From a virus: a stretch of 24,223 nucleotides of DNA. Of the stretch, positions 2,883 through 22,475 are shown one piece after another; positions within the stretch are counted from its first letter, which is position 1; each line of letters starts with the position of its first letter. The notes below the pieces were generated by a model. That model ran no database searches. It saw only the letters and a program-made list of their open reading frames with translations, and had not been told where the DNA came from. Both the position numbers and the translations under genes were made by a program. The DNA is taken from positions 1 through 24,223 of IMG/VR virus record IMGVR_UViG_3300025930_000037; one strand, 5' to 3'.

Positions 2883-4160
2883 ATGGCACTTCCACGAATG
2901 AACCAGACCAAGACCCACATATACCGGCGGCACGCCACCAAGTGCCCCATATTCGGCGACACGAAAGATATGACTCACTGCGAGTGCATCATATGGATCC
3001 GTGGCAAAGTCAAGGGCAAGGCGATACGCGACTCGCTCGACACGCGCGCGCTGTCCACGGCAGAGCAACGGCAACGCAACCTGGAGCGCGGCATCGACTG
3101 GCGTCCTGGCAGGAACCCCGACGGACCGGACGGTGGCGGGTTGCACGTCATAACGAAGGGCAACGAGACCATCGAGTACGCCGCGCATGAGTTCATCAAG
3201 ACCGGGAAGAACGGCAACCTCACTACGACCACGCAGACGTTGTACCGTCGGGCGGTGTTGAACTTCACCGAGTGGGCGAACACTCAGGAGATCACGGTGC
3301 TGGCCAACCTGGACTCGTCGCATATTCGAAAGTACTTCGAGTCGAATAGCCACTGGACGCGCAACACCGCGCAGTCCAGGTTGATCGAACTGCGGGTGTG
3401 GTTCCACTGGTGCAAGGCACAACGGTGGATCGCCCACGCCCCGACGTTCGACCGCACACTGAACTTCACCAGCAAAAAGAAGGGCGGGTCGTCCAGCACG
3501 CGGACGCCGTTCACGCCCGACCAGATCAAGGTCATATTCCAGACCATCGAAACGTTGCCCGATGAGTCGCGCGATATGACGCGCGGGTTGGTCTACCTCA
3601 TGTTGTTTACCGGGATGCGCATCAGTGACGCCACGTGGTTCGAACGTTCGTACCTGACCGCCGAGGGCAACGCGGACTACTTCGTCATCAAGACGCGCGT
3701 GCCCATCGCGCTCCCGCCCGAACTCCAACAACCCGCCATTGACGCGCTCAACCGTCTCCCTAAGACGCGGGTCTATTACTTCCACCCCGACCGTGAGGAC
3801 GACTATGCGATGGCGCGCCAGCAATTGCGCGATGGCCAGGAGTTCAGGAAGGGTTGGGAGAACCTGTACGAACGTCGAGTGCGCTATACGACCGCACTCG
3901 TCACGCGGTTGCTCGAACTGGCGGGCGTCGGTGGCACGTGTCACACGTTCCGCGACACGTTCGCCATTAACTACTTGATCGGTGATGGCGAGACCGTGGG
4001 CGACATATTCGTCCTGTCGAAGATGTTGGGCCACTCGGACGTCAAGATCACCGACCAGCACTATATGAAGTTGGTTCCCGGGTATCGCGAGAAGATGTCG
4101 AAAGCGACTCGTCGCCTCGCCTACAAGGGTTTGCCCACGCGGTTGACCGTGGCTAGCTAA
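2883..4160 (+). CDS. int: Tyrosine recombinase integrase
   Basis: A 425-residue phage-type tyrosine integrase. The N-terminus has a Cys-containing segment (Cys21, Cys33, Cys35), then IWIRGKVKGKAIRDSL, a likely arm-binding or zinc-stabilised region. A SAM-like core-binding domain spans about 95-190 (TLYRRAVLNFTEWAN). The catalytic domain shows all expected residues: Arg246 in TGMRISD, Lys270 in VIKTR, His354 and Arg357 in CHTFRDTFA, His384 in MLGHSD and nucleophile Tyr394 in DQHYMKL. It catalyses site-specific insertion into, and with a directionality factor excision from, the host chromosome. AAGGAA sits 8 bases upstream of the ATG. It ends at a bidirectional terminator facing a small HTH gene on the other strand, the usual int/xis neighbourhood. 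It appears intact, so integration competence is expected. Confidence 0.95.
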   Translation: MALPRMNQTKTHIYRRHATKCPIFGDTKDMTHCECIIWIRGKVKGKAIRDSLDTRALSTAEQRQRNLERGIDWRPGRNPDGPDGGGLHVITKGNETIEYAAHEFIKTGKNGNLTTTTQTLYRRAVLNFTEWANTQEITVLANLDSSHIRKYFESNSHWTRNTAQSRLIELRVWFHWCKAQRWIAHAPTFDRTLNFTSKKKGGSSSTRTPFTPDQIKVIFQTIETLPDESRDMTRGLVYLMLFTGMRISDATWFERSYLTAEGNADYFVIKTRVPIALPPELQQPAIDALNRLPKTRVYYFHPDREDDYAMARQQLRDGQEFRKGWENLYERRVRYTTALVTRLLELAGVGGTCHTFRDTFAINYLIGDGETVGDIFVLSKMLGHSDVKITDQHYMKLVPGYREKMSKATRRLAYKGLPTRLTVAS

Positions 4161-10554: not shown

Positions 10555-13500
10555 TTAGCTCCATTCGTACCAGTTGTTTAATGTGCTGCTGGACGTTTCT
10601 GCCTTGTAGTAGTGTCCTGGCATCACCCATCCGGCGATGCTGAACGACGCCGTCCCGCTGTAGGTGTTCGTCATGTTGTCGATGATGGAAGTCGGGCCGC
10701 TGCTCGCGTCGCTGACGAGCCGCGCATACTGACCCGCACCGATGGCGATAAAGATCGAGACGAACATGGGCTTGCCTGTGGCGTTGTTGTATTGAACATT
10801 CAATTGCCTACCTGCGGTCTGGTTCGTGCGGGCCGTCAGCGCCCCGGACGATAACGGTACCGCCACACCATTGACGCGAAGCACACCACGGGAGTTGATG
10901 TCGCCGTTCACGTCGAGCATGTAACCCGGCACCGCCGCGCCCATGCCGATGCCGACGTTGCCGCCCTGCAACTGAATAGGTCCACCGAATATGGTAAATG
11001 CCGTCTGAGCAGCTTGGTTGCTTGTCACGGCTTGGAGTATCGGTCCGGTTAGGCTACCAGGAAGGCCGAATGCTGTGGGGTCGCCGCGCACATTCAGGAC
11101 GTGGTCTGGGCCTGCATCTACGGTCAGCTTGGCTCCAGGAGCTGTGGTGCCGATGCCGACTTTCCCATCATATTGAAGGTTAAGAATAGAGGTGCCGGTG
11201 CCAGAGTAACCTATTTGCAGCAGGATGCCATCTGTGGTCGTAAAGGAATAGTTGTTGTCACGTCCATTCCGCCAGATGCGAAGAGTGTTGTTAAGATCTA
11301 GGCCACCGCGAACGTCACAAGCAACCTGTGGCGAGGCAGTGTTGATGCCAACATTGCCAGCAGCCGGGTTGAGGCACAGGCTATTCCAAGAGATCCCAGA
11401 TACTCCTGCCTGTATGACTCCTACATCCACCGAGGTATCAAAACCCATCCATAAGCACTTCGCTGAGTTGGTCTGCCCACTAATTGCCAGTTGAGAGGTT
11501 CCTGCACTGCTGGCCGCTGTACTATTTAAACTGATAGTCGCCGGGCCACCGAACACATGAAGCCTTGCTTGCGGTGATGATGTGCCGATGCCGATGTTAC
11601 CTGTCTTGAACCACAACTGACCGCCCACCCCAATACTGGCATCGACATCGAAGCTCAACCCGAGAGCCACGTCTGCCCAACTAGCGCCTGTCGTTACGAC
11701 ATGCATCCTGGTATTGAGGCCCACTTGGTTCCCGGCGAACATCAGGCCAATGTTGCTCAGTGGGTAGTCATTCCCGGCAGTCATGACCGCTGACCCACAG
11801 GCTACGGAAAAGGCCGTTGGCCAGACGCCACTCAATATAGAACTGCCATTGATCCTGGCACTGCCCGTGACATCGAGAGTAGTCCCAGGAGTTGTGGTGC
11901 CGATGCCTACAGCGCCACCCATGAGGTAATGAGACGAAGCCATATACTCCAATGGCATATAGGCAGAAATGGCGTCATTAAAGGACTGAATACAAGCCAC
12001 TCCAGCAATTGGTGACAACAGAATATTCAGGTTCGGACCCTCTCGGACCTGAAATGTAAATTGAGTCGTAGTACCAACGCCTATCTGGGAAACATTGTTA
12101 AGGGTGAACCCGCCGCCGTCGATGTTCTGCGTCCACGGGGTCTGCGAGCCGCCGCCGCCCGTACTGATCGGCACGCCGTTCACGCGATAGACGCCGCCCT
12201 GGAGGTTACAGTCGCCGTTCACCGAGAGGGAATAGCTGGGAGATCCACCCATTCTGATGCCCACAGCACCGCTGGGTTCAACGCCTATGGCTGCTACTGC
12301 TGCTCCAGCATTGTAAGTATAAAAACTGAAGCTCCCTGAGTCGCCATTGGCTCCAGACGTTGCCATCACGATCTGGGCCACCCTCTTATCTGTTCCTACT
12401 TTGGCATTGTTACAGAAGGCCAGGACACCGATACCCGCATTGGACATCAGACTCAGGACTGGGAATTTACCTGATGCGGCAGTATTGATGACCGTGTGAA
12501 AGGAATTCCCATCAGTCATGGGGAGGACGGCCAAGTTGGTTCCAATGCCTACATCACCCGCCACCGTGATCCGCATCCGCTCGACCTCTCCCGGCGACAA
12601 GCAGATCGGTACGCCTGAAGAGTTCTGCGTATAGAGCGAGAGCACGCCTCGCAGCGGAACCGACACTGCTGCCGAGCCACCGAAGACAAGACCGGCGGCG
12701 TAGTTCGAGTCGTTGAGGAACACCGCGCCCGGTGTGCCGTTCGCTGCCTGATCCCGATGGCGCAAGCCCGCCGCTGCCCCGGAGGTTTCGATATTCACGG
12801 GCGCGACATTCATTACGCCGGTGCCGACGGCAATGGAATTGACCGAGTGCAGGATGAAGTTCGCCGCGTTGATATTGGAGGTCCACGGTGTCTGTGAACC
12901 TCCGCCCCCCGGTGCCCCGGTGATCTTCGACCACGCGAGCGAAGTGATCCAGGCCGGGTCGGCATAGCTCCCCAAGGTGCTCACCGCGTTCGTGACCTTG
13001 GCTGCGGTGTAGTCGCCCGCCGTGGCCACCACGTCGCCGACTCGACCGAAGACACTCGACACGGTGCCGCCGCCAGCGGGCACTCCGGTGATCTTGCTGT
13101 GAGCCAGCGAAGTGATCCAAGGAGGGTCCGCGTAACTGCCGAGCGTGCTGACCGCGTTCGTCACGAGTGCGGCTGTGTAGTCGCCCGCCACCGCCACGAC
13201 TGCACCAGTGCGCCCGAAGACGCTACCGACGCCAGCGGCGGGCACGCCCGTGATCTTCGAGTACGCGAGTGAAGTGATCCAGGCGGGATCAGGATACGAG
13301 CCGAGCACGGACACAGCGTTCGTGACCTGAGCCGCTGTGTAGTCTCCGCTGGCGGCAACGACTACGCCCGCGCGTCCAAAGACGCTCATGACCGCGCCCG
13401 ATGGCACGGCCCACTTGATGCCCTGCGCCGTTGCGCTATCGACGGTGAGCACGTGGCCATTCGTGCCAACCGCCAGCCGGGCGAGTGCGGTGGCGTTGCG

Positions 13501-13725
13501 CGCCAGCAGATCGCCCTTCGTTGTGGTCGGGTCCGTGAACGACTGCGAGGCCAGCCACTGCTCATTCGTCCACAGATCGGTGAGCGCCTGAACATTCAGG
13601 TTCTCGTGCAGTGAGGTGATGACATCGCCGCTGGCCACGACCGGCGGGATGACCGGCGTGACCGGCAGCGTGGTCGACTGCAGATCGGGAGTCAGCTTGA
13701 AGCCGGGCGGGAGCGGATGTGCCAT
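10555..13725 (-). CDS. Long tail fibre / receptor-binding protein
   Basis: A 1056-residue protein with a strong AGGAGG 5 bases before its ATG. Order of parts: a short N-terminal anchor (1-110); three tandem units of about 55 residues (114-274), each with VFGR-x-G-x-VVA-x-x-GDYTAA, then AWITSLA-x-SKITG, joined by Gly/Ala linkers; a Gly-Gly-Gly-Gly-Ser-Gln-Thr-Pro-Trp hinge used twice (about 275 and 530); many VGIGT-x-x-P units spread through the remaining shaft; and a C-terminal globular head with MFVSIFIAIG, then FSIAGWVMPGHYYKAE, ending NNWYEWS. The units are typical of beta-rich trimeric fibres. No S74 intramolecular chaperone is seen. The distal head is the likely receptor contact. The middle of the gene has lower GC than its flanks, as is usual for fast-evolving fibres. 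Confidence 0.85.
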   Translation of the reverse strand: MAHPLPPGFKLTPDLQSTTLPVTPVIPPVVASGDVITSLHENLNVQALTDLWTNEQWLASQSFTDPTTTKGDLLARNATALARLAVGTNGHVLTVDSATAQGIKWAVPSGAVMSVFGRAGVVVAASGDYTAAQVTNAVSVLGSYPDPAWITSLAYSKITGVPAAGVGSVFGRTGAVVAVAGDYTAALVTNAVSTLGSYADPPWITSLAHSKITGVPAGGGTVSSVFGRVGDVVATAGDYTAAKVTNAVSTLGSYADPAWITSLAWSKITGAPGGGGSQTPWTSNINAANFILHSVNSIAVGTGVMNVAPVNIETSGAAAGLRHRDQAANGTPGAVFLNDSNYAAGLVFGGSAAVSVPLRGVLSLYTQNSSGVPICLSPGEVERMRITVAGDVGIGTNLAVLPMTDGNSFHTVINTAASGKFPVLSLMSNAGIGVLAFCNNAKVGTDKRVAQIVMATSGANGDSGSFSFYTYNAGAAVAAIGVEPSGAVGIRMGGSPSYSLSVNGDCNLQGGVYRVNGVPISTGGGGSQTPWTQNIDGGGFTLNNVSQIGVGTTTQFTFQVREGPNLNILLSPIAGVACIQSFNDAISAYMPLEYMASSHYLMGGAVGIGTTTPGTTLDVTGSARINGSSILSGVWPTAFSVACGSAVMTAGNDYPLSNIGLMFAGNQVGLNTRMHVVTTGASWADVALGLSFDVDASIGVGGQLWFKTGNIGIGTSSPQARLHVFGGPATISLNSTAASSAGTSQLAISGQTNSAKCLWMGFDTSVDVGVIQAGVSGISWNSLCLNPAAGNVGINTASPQVACDVRGGLDLNNTLRIWRNGRDNNYSFTTTDGILLQIGYSGTGTSILNLQYDGKVGIGTTAPGAKLTVDAGPDHVLNVRGDPTAFGLPGSLTGPILQAVTSNQAAQTAFTIFGGPIQLQGGNVGIGMGAAVPGYMLDVNGDINSRGVLRVNGVAVPLSSGALTARTNQTAGRQLNVQYNNATGKPMFVSIFIAIGAGQYARLVSDASSGPTSIIDNMTNTYSGTASFSIAGWVMPGHYYKAETSSSTLNNWYEWS
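12904..13386 (-). repeat. Three tandem ~165-bp units in the tail fibre gene
   Basis: They encode residues about 114-274, three copies of a VFGR...GDYTAA...ITSLA.SKITG unit of 54-56 residues. The first two linkers are short (AAGVG, GGGTVS). Similar units occur in many phage fibres. Copies differ at scattered positions, so this is an old duplication, though it stays a possible recombination site. Confidence 0.8.
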
Positions 13726-14025: not shown

Positions 14026-16643
14026 GGCGCGGTTACGATCCCGCCATTGAGTTCGAGTGCCACTTGGCCACGGTCGACACCGTCGGCCCAGAGGCGCATG
14101 ATGTTTCCCGCGGCGTCGCGGAATGTGACCTTCATGGTCTTCCCGGCATTGCTGCCCACCGTAAACCCTTTATCGGAGCGAGTGCCGTTCTTGCCCGAGA
14201 TGAGCACATACTCGCCAGCGGTCCCGCTGCTGCTTTCGAACTCAAGGTATGCGCCATTCGGGGACCGCACCAGCGAGCCGATCTTCGTAGTGTCATAGAA
14301 GATCAAGCCGCGCGAGACCAGCGAGGCGACCTCACTACCCTTCGTGACCTTCAAGGCTATCGACGTGTAGGTGGAGTCGGTGGTCGTTGGACTCGTGGCA
14401 ATGTTGCCGCTGCTCGCCGACGTTATCAAGAGGTCGGCATTGCGGATGAACAGACTGCCCGAGGTGTTTGTGTAGACGTTGGCGGTAGCGTAGCTCGTGC
14501 CGCCCGCGCCGAAGACCTTGAACCAGCCGCCATAGACGGAGCCGGTCATCAGACCGATCTCACCGATGACTGACGTACCGTCCCAAACCTTGAGCACGCC
14601 CGGCTTCGATGCGCCCCCGCCCACGTCCAGCGAAGTGGTACTGAGCTTGTCGGTCGTGACTGTCCCGACAATGAGCTTGCTTCCGCTGATCGTTCCGATC
14701 TGCCCGTCGGAGATCAACCCTATGGTGATCGTTGCGGCATTGATCGTTCCGATCTGGCCCGCTGAGATCGACCCGGTGATGGCGGTCGCGTTCACGCTGG
14801 CGATCTGCGCGGCTGAGATGCTGCCTTGGATCGCCGAAGCGTTGACTGAGCCGATCTGCGTCGAGTTGATCGAGCCAGCAATGGCCGAGGCGTTGACCGA
14901 GCCGATCTGCGCGGCCTGAATGATGCCCGTGATCTGCCCGGCGGTGATCGTCTGGATCTGCGCGGCGAGGATCAGGCCGGTGATCGAGTTCGCCGAGATC
15001 CGGCCGATCTGGTAGAAGCTCATCACCGAGGCTTTCGGGTTGTTGTTGATGGCCCACGTGGTGCCGTTGGCATTCATCTGGTAGAAGTTGCCGTCCGGCT
15101 CGTAGTAGAAGAACGAGTTCGGCGGGAAGTTGTCATTCGGGAACGCTTGCGCCGGTGGCCACGGATCGCCGATCTTCACTATCTGGATCGGGCGCAGCGC
15201 GTCGGCGTACTTGGCCAGATCGTCGATGATCTGGTTGGCCAGTTGCGATGAGATGATGACGCCGTTAATGGTCGTTGCGTTGACCGAGCCGATCTGCCCG
15301 GCTTGGATAGCGCCCTGAATGGTCGTAGCCTGCACGCTGCCGATCTGGTTCGAGGTGATCGAGCCAGCGATGCTGGCCGCGTTGACCGATCCAATTTGGC
15401 CAGCGTTGATCTGCCCGACGATGCTGCCCGCGTTGACCGTACCGATGCTGGATGCGCTCAGGCCGGGCGGCACCTGAATGTTCGCGTCCGTGATCGAGCC
15501 AGCGGCGGGCAAGCTCGGCGGGAGGTTCGTGGTCTTCCAGCGGCTGCGCTGATCGAGCACGCGCAGCAACGTCTCCAGGTCTGGCTGGGACGCGCCGAAC
15601 TGCGCGTCGTATTGCACTTCCGTCTTGGAGAACCAAGACATCGAGAGCGACCGGATGACGTACCAGCCCTTGACGCCCAGCCCCTCTTCGTCGATCCAGA
15701 CCTGCTGGCCGAGCTTCAGCCCGTCCTGCGCCCAGATCGTGAAGCTACCCGACTCGATGGGGTTGGCATACTTGAGCACCACGCTCTTGGCTCTCATCGC
15801 CGCGTCCCATCCGTTCGTGATCTGCTCGTCGATCACGGCGGCTTGTAGTTCGCCGTACTTCTCAATAGAGACCGGGTCGGCATACTCGGCTTCGACGAAC
15901 GTCCCGCCGACGGGATCGACGGCCACGCCGCGCACGTAGCACTTGTTGATGGGGTTCGAGAAGTCGCGCTTGAAGTTCTGCACCCTGACCGGGAACGAGT
16001 CCACGAGATCGGGAGAGGTCGACAGCCGGAACGGCGCTTGAGGCGCTTCGCTGGCCAGCCGGTAGTGAAGCACCGCGTCGAAGTCGACGTTCCACTCCGC
16101 GCCAGCCAGCCCCGTCATATCATCGAGCACCTGGCGCGCGGTCTTATTCTTCCAGTCGTAGTACTGGATGACCGGGATGACTTCGGCTACATCTGAGGCA
16201 GAGTCGATCTGCGGGCAGAAGTGTCCGAGCAGCCGCTGGATGATCTGCTTGTCGGACGCTGGCAGCGTGAGGTTGAAGCCGCCCCAGCACACGGAACGGT
16301 CGAGCGCGCTGGCGTGGTCGTTGAGTTCGACCTTGTAGAAGACTTCGAAGCCGACAGCGTCGGACTGCTGCATGGACATCGAGAAGATGCGGCCCTCGAA
16401 TAATTTGGTGGTGCCGTCGCGTCCGTCCACGATGGTGCAGAGGTACAGGTCTCCGATGTCGACGCCGTACACGTCCAGGTCATAATGCGCGGCGTCGTAG
16501 CGCGCGATCCGCGAGAACGACTGGCCCATGATGGTGAGCGACGCGGTGGTGATCCGGCGCGAGGAGTCATAGTTGATGCGCGTTTCCTGGAGTCGACACG
16601 CCGAGGTCACGTCCGCGCCGTTCAGATAGATAAGGGCATTCAT
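14022..16643 (-). CDS. Tail hub/tip protein fused to a repeat-rich fibre
   Basis: An 873-residue protein coupled by ATGA to the tape measure gene. Residues 1-370 look like a baseplate-hub (gp27-like/Tal-type) part: LIYLNGADVTSACR, GDLYLCTIVDG, FEGRIFSMSM, NPINKCYVRG and LKLGQQVWIDEEGLGVKGWYV all suggest beta-barrel domains. Two blocks of 17-residue repeats (396-465, 549-660) built on Q-I-G-S-V-N-A follow, separated by a small domain with NSFFYYEPDGNFYQMN. A glycine-containing distal domain (670-873) with VWDGTSVIGEIG and a C-terminal GQVALELNGG closes the chain. It thus combines the tip plug that contacts the tape measure with a central fibre. No separate Dit-like gene is seen between it and the tape measure gene, so this protein or one elsewhere must fill that role. 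Confidence 0.75.
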   Translation of the reverse strand: MNALIYLNGADVTSACRLQETRINYDSSRRITTASLTIMGQSFSRIARYDAAHYDLDVYGVDIGDLYLCTIVDGRDGTTKLFEGRIFSMSMQQSDAVGFEVFYKVELNDHASALDRSVCWGGFNLTLPASDKQIIQRLLGHFCPQIDSASDVAEVIPVIQYYDWKNKTARQVLDDMTGLAGAEWNVDFDAVLHYRLASEAPQAPFRLSTSPDLVDSFPVRVQNFKRDFSNPINKCYVRGVAVDPVGGTFVEAEYADPVSIEKYGELQAAVIDEQITNGWDAAMRAKSVVLKYANPIESGSFTIWAQDGLKLGQQVWIDEEGLGVKGWYVIRSLSMSWFSKTEVQYDAQFGASQPDLETLLRVLDQRSRWKTTNLPPSLPAAGSITDANIQVPPGLSASSIGTVNAGSIVGQINAGQIGSVNAASIAGSITSNQIGSVQATTIQGAIQAGQIGSVNATTINGVIISSQLANQIIDDLAKYADALRPIQIVKIGDPWPPAQAFPNDNFPPNSFFYYEPDGNFYQMNANGTTWAINNNPKASVMSFYQIGRISANSITGLILAAQIQTITAGQITGIIQAAQIGSVNASAIAGSINSTQIGSVNASAIQGSISAAQIASVNATAITGSISAGQIGTINAATITIGLISDGQIGTISGSKLIVGTVTTDKLSTTSLDVGGGASKPGVLKVWDGTSVIGEIGLMTGSVYGGWFKVFGAGGTSYATANVYTNTSGSLFIRNADLLITSASSGNIATSPTTTDSTYTSIALKVTKGSEVASLVSRGLIFYDTTKIGSLVRSPNGAYLEFESSSGTAGEYVLISGKNGTRSDKGFTVGSNAGKTMKVTFRDAAGNIMRLWADGVDRGQVALELNGGIVTAP
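14664..14999 (-). repeat. 17-residue repeat block B in the tail hub/fibre gene
   Basis: Encodes residues 549-660 with regular 17-residue units, for instance IQAAQIGSVNASAIAGS (575-591), INSTQIGSVNASAIQGS and ISAAQIASVNATAITGS, then an 18-residue variant. At DNA level the period is 51 bases. Regular Ile every few residues and Gly/Ser turns suggest a beta-helix-like shaft. Confidence 0.85.
15249..15458 (-). repeat. 17-residue repeat block A in the tail hub/fibre gene
   Basis: Encodes residues 396-465, with units INAGQIGSVNAASIAGS (412-428), ITSNQIGSVQATTIQGA and IQAGQIGSVNATTINGV. It is the same family as block B, so one block was probably copied from the other and an intervening domain (466-548) inserted or retained. 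Confidence 0.85.
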
Positions 16644-19600
16644 GCGACCGGCACCATCTGGCGGGAGAGGTTCGTGGCTATCTGGTCACCGAGTGCGCGC
16701 GCGGCTTCTGCGGTCGTGATGCCTTGGGCCACGATGGAGACGTTTATCGCCTTCAGCGTCTCGGCGTTCGAGCGCACGTCGGTCTGTAGGTTCGTGGCCA
16801 GCGTGCGCATGTCGCCGAGGATGGTCCGAATGTCCACGAGCACCGGGTACGAGTCCATTACGTTGTTGCGGATCGTTTCGAAGATCGGGTTGACAAAGCC
16901 GGTCCAGTCGTAGAACTGGTCCCGGTGCTTCTCCATCGCTTTCACCAGCGTGCCGTAGGCGAGTTCCTCGAAGATGCGGAACGACACGCCGAGGATGCCG
17001 CCGTCGGCCCGGCTCCCGAGCAACAGCATGGACCCGGCGGTGTTCCGCTCGACTTGGTTCATGGTGCCCTCGAGCTTGGCGATCTGAATATTCAGGATCA
17101 CGCTCGATACAAGCTGGCCCGCGCTGAGGATGTTGCCCAGCAGCCCGCCCGACAGGAAGCCCATGATGCCCTCAGCCGCGCCACCGCCACCGCCGCCTGG
17201 AATGCTGGGGATATCGCTGCCGCCGCCACCACCGGGCACGCTGCCACCGCCACCGCCGCCCGGGATGTCGATCTTCTTGGCCGAGTCGCCGACGGCATCG
17301 ACCGCGCTCTTGATGTCGTCCCAGACGCCCTTGAGTCCCTTCGTCTTGCCCGTGAGCACGCCGATGACTTCATCGCTGGCCAGATGGAGCAGCGACTTGC
17401 CGATGTCGTTGAGCGCGCCTGTGGCCAGCGCGCCGATGTCGGTCCAGATCGAGGTGTGCTGGCTCTTGAGCGTTTCGAGCTTGCCGCCCGGCCCGGTGAT
17501 GTCGGCAACGAACTTGTCGTACTCGATGCGCTGGTTGCCGAGTTCGGTCTGGAGGTCGGTGGTGCCCTGCTGATAGTCGGCCTTGAGCGCGGCGGCTTGC
17601 TCGGCTGACTTCTTCGTGATGTCGATCACGTGCTGGTCATAGTCCAGCTTCTTCTGCGCCAGCGCCTCTTGCTGCTTGAGGATCTCCGCATCCTGCGCCG
17701 TCGCATGGGAGGTCTGGATCTTCAGGATCTTCTTTTCGGTCTCGACCACGAACTCGTCATAGTCGGCCTTCTTCTTGGCCAGCCCCTCCAGCTGCTTGCC
17801 GGTCTCCGTCGCGATCCCGTCGGCGTAGTGCTGGACCGCCGCGTCCTGGTCCTTAGCGTTCTCCTTCAGGTACTCATCGAAGTCGCGCCCCTTGCGGTTG
17901 AGCGACTCGTGCAGGTCGGACTCCTCGCGCTCCTGCCGGAGCTTCTGGTCCCGGGTGTAGCGCGCGAGCTTGTCGTTCTGCTCGGTGATGTAGAACTGCA
18001 GATCCTCGCCCTTGCGCTTGAGTGACGTCTCCAGGTCGGCTTCCTCCTGCGAGTAGACGCCCTTGTTCTTGGCGCGGACGGCGGCGATCTTCGTGGCGGT
18101 GTCTTCGGCATAGCGGTTGTAGTCGCGCTGGCGCTCGGCGATGTTATCGGCGGTGTCCTTGGTCTCGTCCTCAATGTTGGTAGCCGTGTCCTGGCCGAGC
18201 CGTTGCAGGTCTTTGTTGGCATCGTCGACGAAGTCCTTATACGACTGCGTGCGGTCGGCCAGTTCGTCCCGGAGCTTCTCGGTCTCCTCCTCCAGTTGCT
18301 TCTCGTACTTGACCTGAATGTCTTCGATGTTCTGCGCCACGTCCCGCGCATACTCTTCGTAGTCCTGCGTCTTATCGTCGAGCGCGTCCCGGGCCGACTG
18401 CACCTGCTCGGCCTCGGCCTCGGCGTGCTTCTTCTTGATGTCCTCAATGTTGCCGACCACTTCGGCGGCGTAGTCGTCATACTTCTTCGCGGCTTCGTCG
18501 AGCGCACTCTGCGTCTCATCGGCGAGGCCCGCCATTGCGATCTCGTAGTTTGTGGCCAACTCGGCCATCTGGTCGGCGTTGTCGGCGACATACTGATCCC
18601 ACTCGGACGCGCGCTCGGCCAGCGAGTCAACGAGTTCCTGCTCCTGCTTCTTGAGGCCCGCGTTCTGGTCGGGTCCGAACAGCCGATCCCAGACGGCGTC
18701 GAGCACGTCGTTCTTGAACGCCTTCGCCCGGTCCTCGATGTACTTGAAGTACTCGGCCCAGACGTTCTTCTGCTTCTTGGTATGCTCCTCAAGCTGCTTC
18801 TCGGCTTGGTCGAGCCGCCGCTGGTCCTCCTTCGTCCACTTCTCGTTGTGGGCTTCGTGCTCCTTCTTCGAGTCCTCCAGCATCTTGATGCGCGCGCGGA
18901 GTTCCGCTTCGGTGCCGACGCCCGCGTCCCGGGCTATCGTTTCGTAGTCCTTCTTCGACTGCGCGGCGACTGCATCGAGTTCCGCGCGGGTCTGTTCACC
19001 CATGCGGTGATAGGCGTCGGTCAGTTCCGCGCTGGCGTGGTCGGCCACCTTCTTCTGCGCTGCCAGTACGGCCTGCCATGCCGGATACAGATCCTCGGGC
19101 ACGTCGGTGGTGGCTTCGAGTTGCTTGTAGGCCGCGAGCATATCGTCGGCGGCTTTCACCAGATCGCTGCCGACCACGGTGCCCAGCGTCTTCATCGCAT
19201 TGACGAGATCACGCTCGGTGTGCGCCTTGAGCGCATCCTGCGCCTCTTTGAGCTTGGCCAGAGCCGCGCCATAGTCGGATGCGCTGCGCTCCCCGTGCTC
19301 GAACGACACGCGCACGGTGTCGGCGAACTGCTGCGCGCTGGCCACCGCTTGCGTGAGCACCGAGGTCGAAGTGACGCCGAGCTTCTCCAGCGCGATCTTC
19401 GACTCGGAGAACCGTTTGGCCACCGGCCCCGAGACTGCGCCCATGCGATCCCACAACGGGACGATGATCTCGACGGTCTCCACCGCCGCCTTCTTCATCT
19501 CGTAGTACGCCTTCGTAAAGACGTCCTCGTTCTTTTTCTGGCTGGCCTGGAACGCCTTGTCCGAGTCCACCCATCGCTTCGAGAACGCCAGCAGTTCGGT

Positions 19601-20944
19601 ATCGGCCTTCTTGCGCTCCTCGGCGAGCTTCTTGGCGGCGTTCGCATTGGCCACGTCCTGCGCCTCGCGCGCCTTGGCTTCGTTGCGTGCCTTCGTGTCT
19701 GCCGCCGTGGACGCATCCTGCGCCTTCTTGCGTTCGTCGAGCGCGGCTTTGTTGGCAGCGATCTTGACGTTCTGCTCGTCCCAGATCGACGAGAGCTTCT
19801 TCATCTCGTCGGTCACGCCGGGGATCTTCGAAACGGCGGTACTGATCCAACCGAACAGCGTGGACATGCCTTGCGTGAAGACGCCGATGGCTTTGCCGAT
19901 GTACTCGAAGACGGTGGCGAAGATCGCCTTGATCGCGTTCCAGTCGTTCTCCCACCGCTTGAGCGGGTATTCGAAGACGTGGCCGAGGAAGTCGGACAGT
20001 TCGGCCCAGACCGCTTTGATGGCGGGCCAATGTTCGGTGATCCACTGGACCGGGCCTTGCGTCTCCTCCCACGCTTTCGCAAAGTCGAGGATGGCTTTAA
20101 CGGCGATGTCGATCAGCGGCTTGATCGCAATTATCATCTCGCCGATGGACTTGCCGAGGGCGACCATGACCTCCTCGGTCGCCTCGTCCATAACGTGCAT
20201 CGCGCCTTCCCAGCCAGCCAGCGACTCGTCGCCCGCGCCCTTCCAGCGCTTGGCCATATCGTCGGTGACCGCCTCGGCGACGGTCTGCGCGGAGACGAGT
20301 CCCGCTTTGACCTTCTCCATTGCGGTCGGCACGTCGGTCCCGATCTTGGCGGCGAGTGCGCTCCACGCGCTGACACCTTCCCTCTCCAGCGCCTTCATGT
20401 CCTTCGCCGAAGCGACCATGTGCGTCTGCATCTCGGCGATAGCCCCGCTGACTGCGGTGATCCACTCAGGCCCCTTCTTCATCCCGGACGCGGCATCGAC
20501 CAGCGCGGTCATGGTCTTGCCGGTCTGCTCGGTCGAGACGCCGAGATCGAGCATGTTCTTGGCCGCCGGGCCGAGCGTGTCCTCGAAGTCGAAGAGGGAA
20601 TGGAACTCCAGGTTCGAGAGGTCGTCGAATAGTTTGCCGGTCTCCTCGGTGGGACCGGCGATGGCGCGGAACGCTTGGGCGAGGTGGTCGGTCTTGGCGG
20701 CGGCTTCGAGCATGGCGGGCGCGAGGTTCTGCGCCCAGTCGATAATTTCCTGGAGCTTGAAGCCCGCCGCTACGCCCATAGCGGTCTCGGCAATGCCGCC
20801 GAGCGCATCACCGATGCCCGACAGGAAGCCGCCCGCCTTCGTGGAGGTCTCCTCGCTTTGCTTCTCGACCTCTTTTAAGGCGTCGTTGAACTCTTTGTTA
20901 TCGAGTAGAATGCGCGCGATGAGATCGCCGAGATCAGCGGCCAT
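16640..20944 (-). CDS. Tape measure protein
   Basis: A 1434-residue, mostly helical protein, by far the largest here. The N-terminal 300 residues match the tape measure family: a helical start (DLGDLIARILLDNKEF), a Gly/Ala hydrophobic stretch (FLSGIGDALGGIAETAMGVAAG, 40-61), then the LFDFEDTLGPAAKNMLDLGVS block. From about 330 to 1200 it is a long charged coiled coil that includes nine exact 40-residue repeats (782-1141). A Gly/Pro-rich linker (about 1227-1255) leads to a hydrophobic C-terminal part (GFLSGGLLGNILSAGQLV) that may enter the host membrane. The protein sets tail length; at about 0.15 nm per helical residue it predicts roughly 215 nm. The ATG overlaps the stop of the chaperone extension (TAATG). 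No lytic transglycosylase or peptidase motif is seen. Confidence 0.9.
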   Translation of the reverse strand: MAADLGDLIARILLDNKEFNDALKEVEKQSEETSTKAGGFLSGIGDALGGIAETAMGVAAGFKLQEIIDWAQNLAPAMLEAAAKTDHLAQAFRAIAGPTEETGKLFDDLSNLEFHSLFDFEDTLGPAAKNMLDLGVSTEQTGKTMTALVDAASGMKKGPEWITAVSGAIAEMQTHMVASAKDMKALEREGVSAWSALAAKIGTDVPTAMEKVKAGLVSAQTVAEAVTDDMAKRWKGAGDESLAGWEGAMHVMDEATEEVMVALGKSIGEMIIAIKPLIDIAVKAILDFAKAWEETQGPVQWITEHWPAIKAVWAELSDFLGHVFEYPLKRWENDWNAIKAIFATVFEYIGKAIGVFTQGMSTLFGWISTAVSKIPGVTDEMKKLSSIWDEQNVKIAANKAALDERKKAQDASTAADTKARNEAKAREAQDVANANAAKKLAEERKKADTELLAFSKRWVDSDKAFQASQKKNEDVFTKAYYEMKKAAVETVEIIVPLWDRMGAVSGPVAKRFSESKIALEKLGVTSTSVLTQAVASAQQFADTVRVSFEHGERSASDYGAALAKLKEAQDALKAHTERDLVNAMKTLGTVVGSDLVKAADDMLAAYKQLEATTDVPEDLYPAWQAVLAAQKKVADHASAELTDAYHRMGEQTRAELDAVAAQSKKDYETIARDAGVGTEAELRARIKMLEDSKKEHEAHNEKWTKEDQRRLDQAEKQLEEHTKKQKNVWAEYFKYIEDRAKAFKNDVLDAVWDRLFGPDQNAGLKKQEQELVDSLAERASEWDQYVADNADQMAELATNYEIAMAGLADETQSALDEAAKKYDDYAAEVVGNIEDIKKKHAEAEAEQVQSARDALDDKTQDYEEYARDVAQNIEDIQVKYEKQLEEETEKLRDELADRTQSYKDFVDDANKDLQRLGQDTATNIEDETKDTADNIAERQRDYNRYAEDTATKIAAVRAKNKGVYSQEEADLETSLKRKGEDLQFYITEQNDKLARYTRDQKLRQEREESDLHESLNRKGRDFDEYLKENAKDQDAAVQHYADGIATETGKQLEGLAKKKADYDEFVVETEKKILKIQTSHATAQDAEILKQQEALAQKKLDYDQHVIDITKKSAEQAAALKADYQQGTTDLQTELGNQRIEYDKFVADITGPGGKLETLKSQHTSIWTDIGALATGALNDIGKSLLHLASDEVIGVLTGKTKGLKGVWDDIKSAVDAVGDSAKKIDIPGGGGGGSVPGGGGGSDIPSIPGGGGGGAAEGIMGFLSGGLLGNILSAGQLVSSVILNIQIAKLEGTMNQVERNTAGSMLLLGSRADGGILGVSFRIFEELAYGTLVKAMEKHRDQFYDWTGFVNPIFETIRNNVMDSYPVLVDIRTILGDMRTLATNLQTDVRSNAETLKAINVSIVAQGITTAEAARALGDQIATNLSRQMVPVA
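17522..18601 (-). repeat. Nine exact 40-residue (120-bp) repeats in the tape measure gene
   Basis: Starting at Trp782 and ending before Tyr1142, an aromatic-acid-x-aromatic signature recurs every 40 residues without a gap: WDQY, YDDY, YEEY, YKDF, YNRY, LQFY, FDEY, YDEF, YDQH, and YDKF at 1142. Most units also share a preceding K/Q/R-x-D and a central acidic helix. The DNA copies have diverged widely while the length has been kept exactly. Confidence 0.9.
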
Positions 20945-21396
20945 TATGATGCTCCCTTGTGACGTTGCGCGTAGAGATCGAAGCGCTGCATTACATCGTC
21001 ATTCGTACCGGCGGGACGGTTGGATGGCGGGCACTCGCCGGGCAGCGCATATCGCACGCCCGGACGCGGGCCGGGTGCGGCAGGCAATGCGGGACCGGGA
21101 CCGGGTGCGTTCGTGGCCATGCGCATCTCCTGGCGGGCGCGGTACTGGAACATGAAGAACTCGACGCCATGCACGGGGGCTTTCTCGGAACGGCTGATCG
21201 AGTAGTTGAGCCAGGCGGGGAGAGCGGCACAGTATTCACTGAACCGCTCGTGCTCCAGGTGTCGGTCAATGAGCGCCTCGAACTCTTCGAGGGTCAGATC
21301 CCAGAGGTCTCGCTCGGAGAGTCCGAGGTCGTAGCGTCCGACGGCCCAGACAACAAGCCAACTCCATTCGCTTTGCTGTTGCCGGGCCGGTCGACG
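20944..21396 (-). CDS. Tail assembly chaperone, frameshift extension (GT-type)
   Basis: This frame has no credible start of its own and is read by a -1 shift at 21396-21402 from the gene at 21707. It then continues for 150 residues to TAA at 20946-20944, making a 254-residue fusion with the first 104 residues of the short form. The extension begins RRPARQQQSEW, then WLVVWAVGRYDLGLSERDLWDLTLEEFEALID, a typical GT-type segment, and ends in a Pro/Gly-rich part (PGPGPALPAAPGPRPG) and a basic tail. In lambda-like phages the long form binds tape measure protein and tail tube. Position directly before the tape measure gene fits this fully. Confidence 0.8.
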   Translation of the reverse strand, partial: RRPARQQQSEWSWLVVWAVGRYDLGLSERDLWDLTLEEFEALIDRHLEHERFSEYCAALPAWLNYSISRSEKAPVHGVEFFMFQYRARQEMRMATNAPGPGPALPAAPGPRPGVRYALPGECPPSNRPAGTNDDVMQRFDLYAQRHKGAS

Positions 21397-21707
21397 TTTG
21401 GGACTTGTCTCCCGCTGATGGCTGTGGCCACGAGCGGCACCATGTCGGCGAACATGCCCGAGTCGAAGTTCTGCTCGACCCATGCGGGCGTGATCTCCGG
21501 GTGGTGCGTTAGCAGCCCGTGGTACAGGATGAGCGCGAGCTTGGCGGGATCGCGGATCGCATCGATCATGTCGGGACCGCCTTTCATGACCTCGATCTTG
21601 TGTTCCTGGGAGAGCGCCTTGAGCGCCCCCAGTGTGAAGCGGAGCCGGTACTCCGTGCCGTTGAGTTCAAAGCGTACCGGCTCGCTGGCACCTATCTGAG
21701 CCACCAT
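21294..21707 (-). CDS. Tail assembly chaperone, short form (G-type)
   Basis: A 137-residue protein between tail tube and tape measure genes, the fixed position of G-type tail chaperones. VRFELNGTEYRLRFTLGALKAL (about 11-32) is the characteristic beta-beta-helix start of this group; the centre is helical (LALILYHGLLTHHPEITPAWVEQNF). The last 33 residues (after Asn104) are Ser/Gly/Thr-rich and look disordered, as expected if they are only a tail read when no frameshift occurs. GGGAG lies 8 bases before the ATG. Most ribosomes would make this form, a minority the longer fusion, and their ratio matters for tail assembly in known siphoviruses. Confidence 0.8.
   Translation of the reverse strand: MVAQIGASEPVRFELNGTEYRLRFTLGALKALSQEHKIEVMKGGPDMIDAIRDPAKLALILYHGLLTHHPEITPAWVEQNFDSGMFADMVPLVATAISGRQVPNVDRPGNSKANGVGLLSGPSDATTSDSPSETSGI
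21342..21402 (-). promoter_or_regulatory. Programmed -1 frameshift signal
   Basis: On the minus strand CCCAAAC occupies 21402-21396 in the reading phase C-CCA-AAC, the X-XXY-YYZ form needed for a -1 slip. After a 6-base spacer (21395-21390), CGGCCC (21389-21384) can pair with GGGCCG (21347-21342), and inside it CAACA (21381-21377) with TGTTG (21355-21351), giving an 11-bp two-part stem. The shifted frame is the open one that encodes the GT-type extension. Confidence 0.85.
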
Positions 21708-21710
21708 GCG

Positions 21711-22475
21711 TTAGACTCCCGCCGCTTGCGTGACGGTGAACGTTCGATCACCGATGGTGATATGGCCAGTGCGCGCGGGCTGCGGAGCCACGCTGGCGGC
21801 AACGGTGTAATTGACCGTCCCATCGCCCACGGTCGGCGTGAGCGGAGCGGTGATCGTAAGCCATGAGGGCGCGTCCGATGCGGCACTCCACGCTTGCGTA
21901 CTGGTCGAAGTCACGGCGATGGTCTTAGCGCCACCGGCAGCGGTCTCGGTGAGGTTGTCGACCGGCACCAGCGTCACGGCGGCGAGTACGTCCGTCGGGA
22001 TGCCCGAGATGCGGATGGTGGTCGCCTTCGTGCAGATGCCCTGCACCGGATAGGTCTCGTTGAGTTGCTTGACGAACCCACGGAACTGCCGCGTGCGCTG
22101 TGCCGGGTCCGTATTGATGAGTTGGAACTTGGTCACCGCGCGGTTCTGTAGCAGGTTCTCCAGGCCGAAAGGCGAGTAGAGCGAGTGCGTCGGATCCGAC
22201 GGGTTGAAATAGCAAGGGAAGCTCAAGTCGCCATCGTCGATCAAGGTCGGCATGAAGGTTTTGTGCGGGATGCCGGTCGAGTGGCTCGTCGTTTCAATTT
22301 CACCGAGCGTGACGTTGGGGCCGGTCAGGTCGCCCATACCGGCGATAGTCGTATACTCCTCCGGCGATGCTTTCGACAGCACCTGGATCTTAGTCCCATA
22401 TGCCGCGATGGCTGGATCAGTGCTCGGCTCAAGCGGCACGATAGAAGGGGGAATGGCAAGGGCAGCAGCGCTCAT
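21711..22475 (-). CDS. Major tail tube protein with C-terminal BACON-like domain
   Basis: A 254-residue protein. Residues 20-175 fit a siphovirus tail tube protein: YGTKIQVL, then YTTIAGMGDLTGPNVTLGEIETTSH (41-65), a Gly-rich loop pattern seen at the start of this fold, and DGDLSFPCYFNPSD, then FVKQLNETYPVQG. Residues about 178-252 are an extra Ig-like domain of BACON type: WSAASDAPSWLTITAP, then VNYTVAASVAP, ending RTGHITIGDRTFTVTQ, whose final strand is the BACON signature. Tube subunits form stacked rings inside which DNA passes; the added domain would stud the tail outside and may bind carbohydrate or host surface. The start overlaps the preceding stop as ATGA. Confidence 0.85.
   Translation of the reverse strand: MSAAALAIPPSIVPLEPSTDPAIAAYGTKIQVLSKASPEEYTTIAGMGDLTGPNVTLGEIETTSHSTGIPHKTFMPTLIDDGDLSFPCYFNPSDPTHSLYSPFGLENLLQNRAVTKFQLINTDPAQRTRQFRGFVKQLNETYPVQGICTKATTIRISGIPTDVLAAVTLVPVDNLTETAAGGAKTIAVTSTSTQAWSAASDAPSWLTITAPLTPTVGDGTVNYTVAASVAPQPARTGHITIGDRTFTVTQAAGV

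Follow-up and report, generated by a model that had tools for sequence, protein, structure and literature searches.

Our analysis indicates that the tail chaperone frames G and T of the phage in IMG/VR virus record IMGVR_UViG_3300025930_000037 are expressed through a G/GT-type programmed -1 ribosomal frameshift, a reading to which we assign a probability of about 96%, and that the frameshift signal is a new instance of a kind long known from phage lambda. The window, by which we mean the whole stretch of DNA analyzed, comprises positions 1-24,223 of that record (24,223 nucleotides). The gene order, the homology of the T segment, the invariance of the slip heptamer, the missing start codons in the T frame and a covarying downstream hairpin together lead to this reading, which an earlier note on the same DNA had proposed and which they support. 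A group of tailed phages so far known only from metagenomes is thereby placed firmly in the G/GT scheme, on evolutionary evidence that is stronger than a motif match.

Open reading frames and profile matches placed the morphogenesis genes on the minus strand and in their customary order, running from the end of the major capsid gene through neck/tail completion, tail terminator and major tail protein to G, T and tape measure, so that G and T are flanked by the major tail gene on one side and the tape measure gene on the other (Table 1). The heptamer CCCAAAC is the sole in-phase XXXYYYZ motif within the G gene, and it joins the G and T frames. Translation bore out both the phase and the 254-residue fusion that had been claimed for it, with 104 residues from G followed by 150 in the -1 frame; the fusion ends at 20944, against the start of the tape measure gene.

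Table 1. Coordinates of the tail chaperone region in the window, and relatives with GGACCCT at the slip position.
Feature	Position	Strand	Basis or remark
Major tail protein gene	21711..22475	minus	Upstream of G; match to phrog_158 (major tail protein) at 1.3e-12
G, tail assembly chaperone of 137 aa (zero frame)	21294..21707	minus	Weak PF12363 Phage_TAC_12 and phrog_2115 matches
Slip heptamer CCCAAAC	21402..21396	minus	G-frame phase GT[C CCA AAC]; phase checked
6-nt spacer GTCGAC	21390..21395	minus	Between heptamer and hairpin
Hairpin 5' arm CGGCCCGGCAACA	21377..21389	minus	Fold; hairpins of relatives covary
Hairpin 3' arm TGTTGTCTGGGCCG	21342..21355	minus	Fold, pairing check
T segment, 150 aa + stop, extension in the -1 frame	20944..21396	minus	Sequence kept in relatives; family matches
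Tape measure gene, downstream of T	16640..20944	minus	PF20155 TMP_3, 8.3e-7; phrog_12798, 2e-7
G_GAC_CCT loci			L033, L041, L049, L051, L058, L068, L072, L076, L079, L084, L086

Profile and fold comparisons place the upstream segment with the tail assembly chaperones and the -1 segment with the lambda-type minor tail protein T. Both lines of comparison identify G as a Phage_TAC_12-like chaperone: PF12363 was matched by 13 of 22 G relatives (best 2.8e-6), with the G of the window falling below the curated cut-off, and the predicted fold of G matched annotated or predicted tail assembly chaperones (E 5e-4) and, weakly, N15 GT. The homology of the T segment to phage T proteins is seen through its relatives, 14 of 41 of which matched PF06223 Phage_tail_T (minor tail protein T; best 1.5e-10) and 22 of 41 PF09550 Phage_TAC_6; the T of the window gave a weak PF09550 match of its own (0.026). 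In the G model (pLDDT 77), residues 11-98 are ordered and disorder begins at about 105-106, and for T the model shows a helical domain predicted with confidence (pLDDT 85). The slip site would therefore stand where an ordered chaperone domain gives way to a disordered tail, which is exchanged for the T domain. A single viral protein of 247 aa, A0A0K1LMC7, was matched by the G model and the T model alike. Searches of the PDB returned nothing meaningful for G by sequence or fold, and nothing for T by sequence.

To quantify how often such a motif arises by chance, we held the G protein constant and drew synonymous codons at the phage's own usage. Of the trials, 60% produced an in-phase XXXYYYZ of some kind in the overlap and 6% produced CCCAAAC, and the heptamer in the window alone is therefore weak evidence for frameshifting; the comparison with relatives, and not the motif, is decisive. 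A search with the T segment recovered 10 viral loci, and a profile of six sequences recovered 75, which, together with the earlier locus L012, reduced to 62 viral loci distinct at the slip site, all carrying the same -1 segment. In the close relatives, whose T segments are 44-59% identical, 18-19 distinct loci use CCCAAAC, in phase in every case. CCA accounts for just 17% of the phage's proline codons, yet these relatives have kept CCCAAAC. The earlier note took the heptamer and the stem to be specific to this phage; the heptamer and a hairpin at this place proved to be common to many relatives. A tblastn search of 50,697 phage records with G and T gave no match.

The first alternative is that T is a separate gene, translated without any frameshift from a start of its own. 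The earlier note had stated that the T segment otherwise has no start, which was incorrect for the window: its T frame is open back to an ATG within G at 21483, preceded by GGAG at a distance of 11 nt, an arrangement that would suit independent initiation. This ATG is not conserved, however, and in the T frame of 43 of the 62 loci the stretch from the last stop to the conserved W.VGRYD core is free of ATG, GTG and TTG codons, so that in most loci T can be reached only from G, as its extension. Several relatives also have a stop directly before the heptamer; L015 and L020 each have a TGA in the -1 frame one codon ahead of it. We consider a separate T gene very unlikely. The Shine-Dalgarno-like GGGAG lying 6 nt before the heptamer of the window was evaluated as an upstream stimulator, and was rejected for want of conservation among the relatives.

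Downstream of the heptamer, after the 6-nt spacer, CGGCCCGG pairs with CUGGGCCG in a stem of 8 bp. For the 48 nt at 21389..21342 the computed folding energy is -25.8 kcal/mol, compared with -14.9 +/- 2.8 for shuffled sequences (z -3.9, with 0 of 200 shuffles as low). Of the two-part stem described previously, the lower helix stands; the upper CAACA/TGTTG pairing is possible, but the minimum-energy fold adopts a slightly different register, and the register of the upper helix in the window is ambiguous. The other close relatives have a perfect stem of 6-12 bp beginning 3-7 nt past the heptamer, and in most of these relatives the 3' arm falls within the codons of the W.VGRYD core. The 3' arm of the window ends 7 nt earlier than that of most relatives, corresponding to a neighbouring stem register.

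Comparison among loci demonstrated that the two arms of the hairpin have changed together. Arms from the same locus paired better than arms swapped between loci in 20,000 of 20,000 permutations, none of which did as well. Because loop lengths vary, covariation was counted on hand-anchored arms from 10 distinct arm sets, leaving outside the count the window and L022, L028 and L029, whose stems are in another register. Four pairs had changed on both sides, and one was found as GC, CG, AU and UA, that is, as all four Watson-Crick types. Doubly changed cells numbered 12, compared with 3.9 in shuffles, although these controls do not correct for shared ancestry among the loci, and the signal dropped off in slid controls.

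The hairpin also bears on the possibility that the fusion arises by transcriptional slippage, which is conceivable for those relatives whose site contains six or seven A in a row, where a polymerase could slip as well. CCCAAAC contains no run above three, however, and an RNA hairpin close downstream fits ribosomal slippage, making a transcriptional origin less probable still than a separate gene. Least probable of all is a frame break caused by sequencing or assembly error, or a T segment decaying from a formerly continuous gene: indels do occur in single metagenomic contigs, but another contig matches the window without a difference over 8.5-9.3 kb, which argues against assembly error, and dozens of diverged relatives share the position of the break while conserving both frames.

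Under programmed ribosomal frameshifting, most ribosomes would terminate at the stop codon of G and produce the 137-aa chaperone. A minority would be held up by the hairpin while CCA is occupied by tRNA-Pro and AAC by tRNA-Asn, move one base back so that the tRNAs re-pair with CCC and AAA, and go on to complete the 254-aa GT protein. If the parallel with lambda holds, the G portion would form a coat around the tape measure protein and the T portion would bring in the major tail protein, with the G:GT ratio governing tail assembly. Three features count against a frameshift, namely the overlap of about 100 nt, the A-site AAC codon and the stem register of the window, which differs from that of most relatives.

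The slip site of lambda is of the GGGAAAG type, and the window phage differs in having CCCAAAC, in the overlap of about 100 nt that follows the site, and in a downstream hairpin that covaries and has its 3' arm within the conserved T core. The two systems are alike in lying between the genes for the major tail and tape measure proteins, in the -1 direction, and in the succession of a chaperone and a T domain, the relatives of the window's T matching the Minor tail protein T family PF06223. In lambda, normal decoding yields G alone and a minority of ribosomes yield GT; the partner bound by G is the tape measure protein, and that of T is the major tail protein (PMC5009743, citing Xu, Hendrix and Duda 2004). 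The haloarchaeal tailed viruses HCTV-1, -2 and -5 have the G-T heptamers GGGAAAC, AAAAAAC and GGGAAAG (PMC5009743), which share with the present case an XXXYYYZ motif in the same gene pair and, in two of the three, AAC as the A-site codon, a codon less usual than AAG at this position in bacteria (PMC5009743). In the window phage, by contrast, X is C, and there is no sign of an archaeal host. The annotated chaperone frameshifts of actinobacteriophages in the PRFect training set (PMC10885494) involve the same gene pair and the same 'threethree' motif class; however, the distance from slip site to G stop averages 26 nt in the SEA-PHAGES set (PMC10885494), compared with about 100 nt here. The length of the overlap may follow from the T core and not from selection on the G tail. 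Positions 21296-21395 are dual coding, and the T core WLTLWAVGRYD also dictates a conserved zero-frame G tail, GS.SGPS.DTTS. A search of the open-access literature on frameshifting returned nothing relevant on CCCAAAC or GGACCCT/GGACCCU.

On a tree of 60 T segments the slip site switches many times: CCCAAAC occurs in two separate clades, and the other sites include CCCTTTA/T, AAAAAAC/A, GGGAAAC, CCCAAAA and AAACCCT. Eleven distinct loci have no XXXYYYZ and carry instead a conserved, non-canonical G_GAC_CCT at the slip position, just upstream of the W.VGRYD core (Table 1); L060 has A_GAC_CCT there. Loci with G_GAC_CCT occupy at least four separate positions on the tree, some on modestly supported branches, and in two cases lie near loci with A_AAC_CCT. 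The motif has the same position and phase as the other slip sites, and in many of these loci a stem follows at the right distance. That one motif was reached convergently at one place argues for its function, and we lean slightly towards the view that G_GAC_CCT is a recurrent -1 shift site interchangeable with A_AAC_CCT. At such a site tRNA-Pro would move from CCU to CCC, and the P-site tRNA-Asp would re-pair poorly (GAC to GGA), which makes the exact slip step uncertain. If this view is true, G_GAC_CCT sites escape searches for XXXYYYZ. The natural variants, in which one homologous protein pair is combined with at least seven different slip sites, form a set on which slip-site rules could be measured. 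A -2/+1 reading for the loci without a canonical heptamer was rejected because of many stops in the alternative frame. Two further T relatives have neither a canonical heptamer nor GGACCCT, L081 having CGCCCT there and L039 nothing obvious.

When bacterial and archaeal genomes were scanned with a profile of the T alignment, no relative turned up, and we therefore propose no host. Elsewhere in the window, a 425-aa open reading frame at 2883-4160 on the plus strand, which we take to resemble a tyrosine recombinase from its motifs, suggests a temperate phage. On the minus strand, 10555-13725 encodes a probable tail fibre of 1056 aa, built with repeat units of the form SVFGR.G.VVA..GDYTAA.VTNAVS.LGSY.DP.WITSLA.SKITG.
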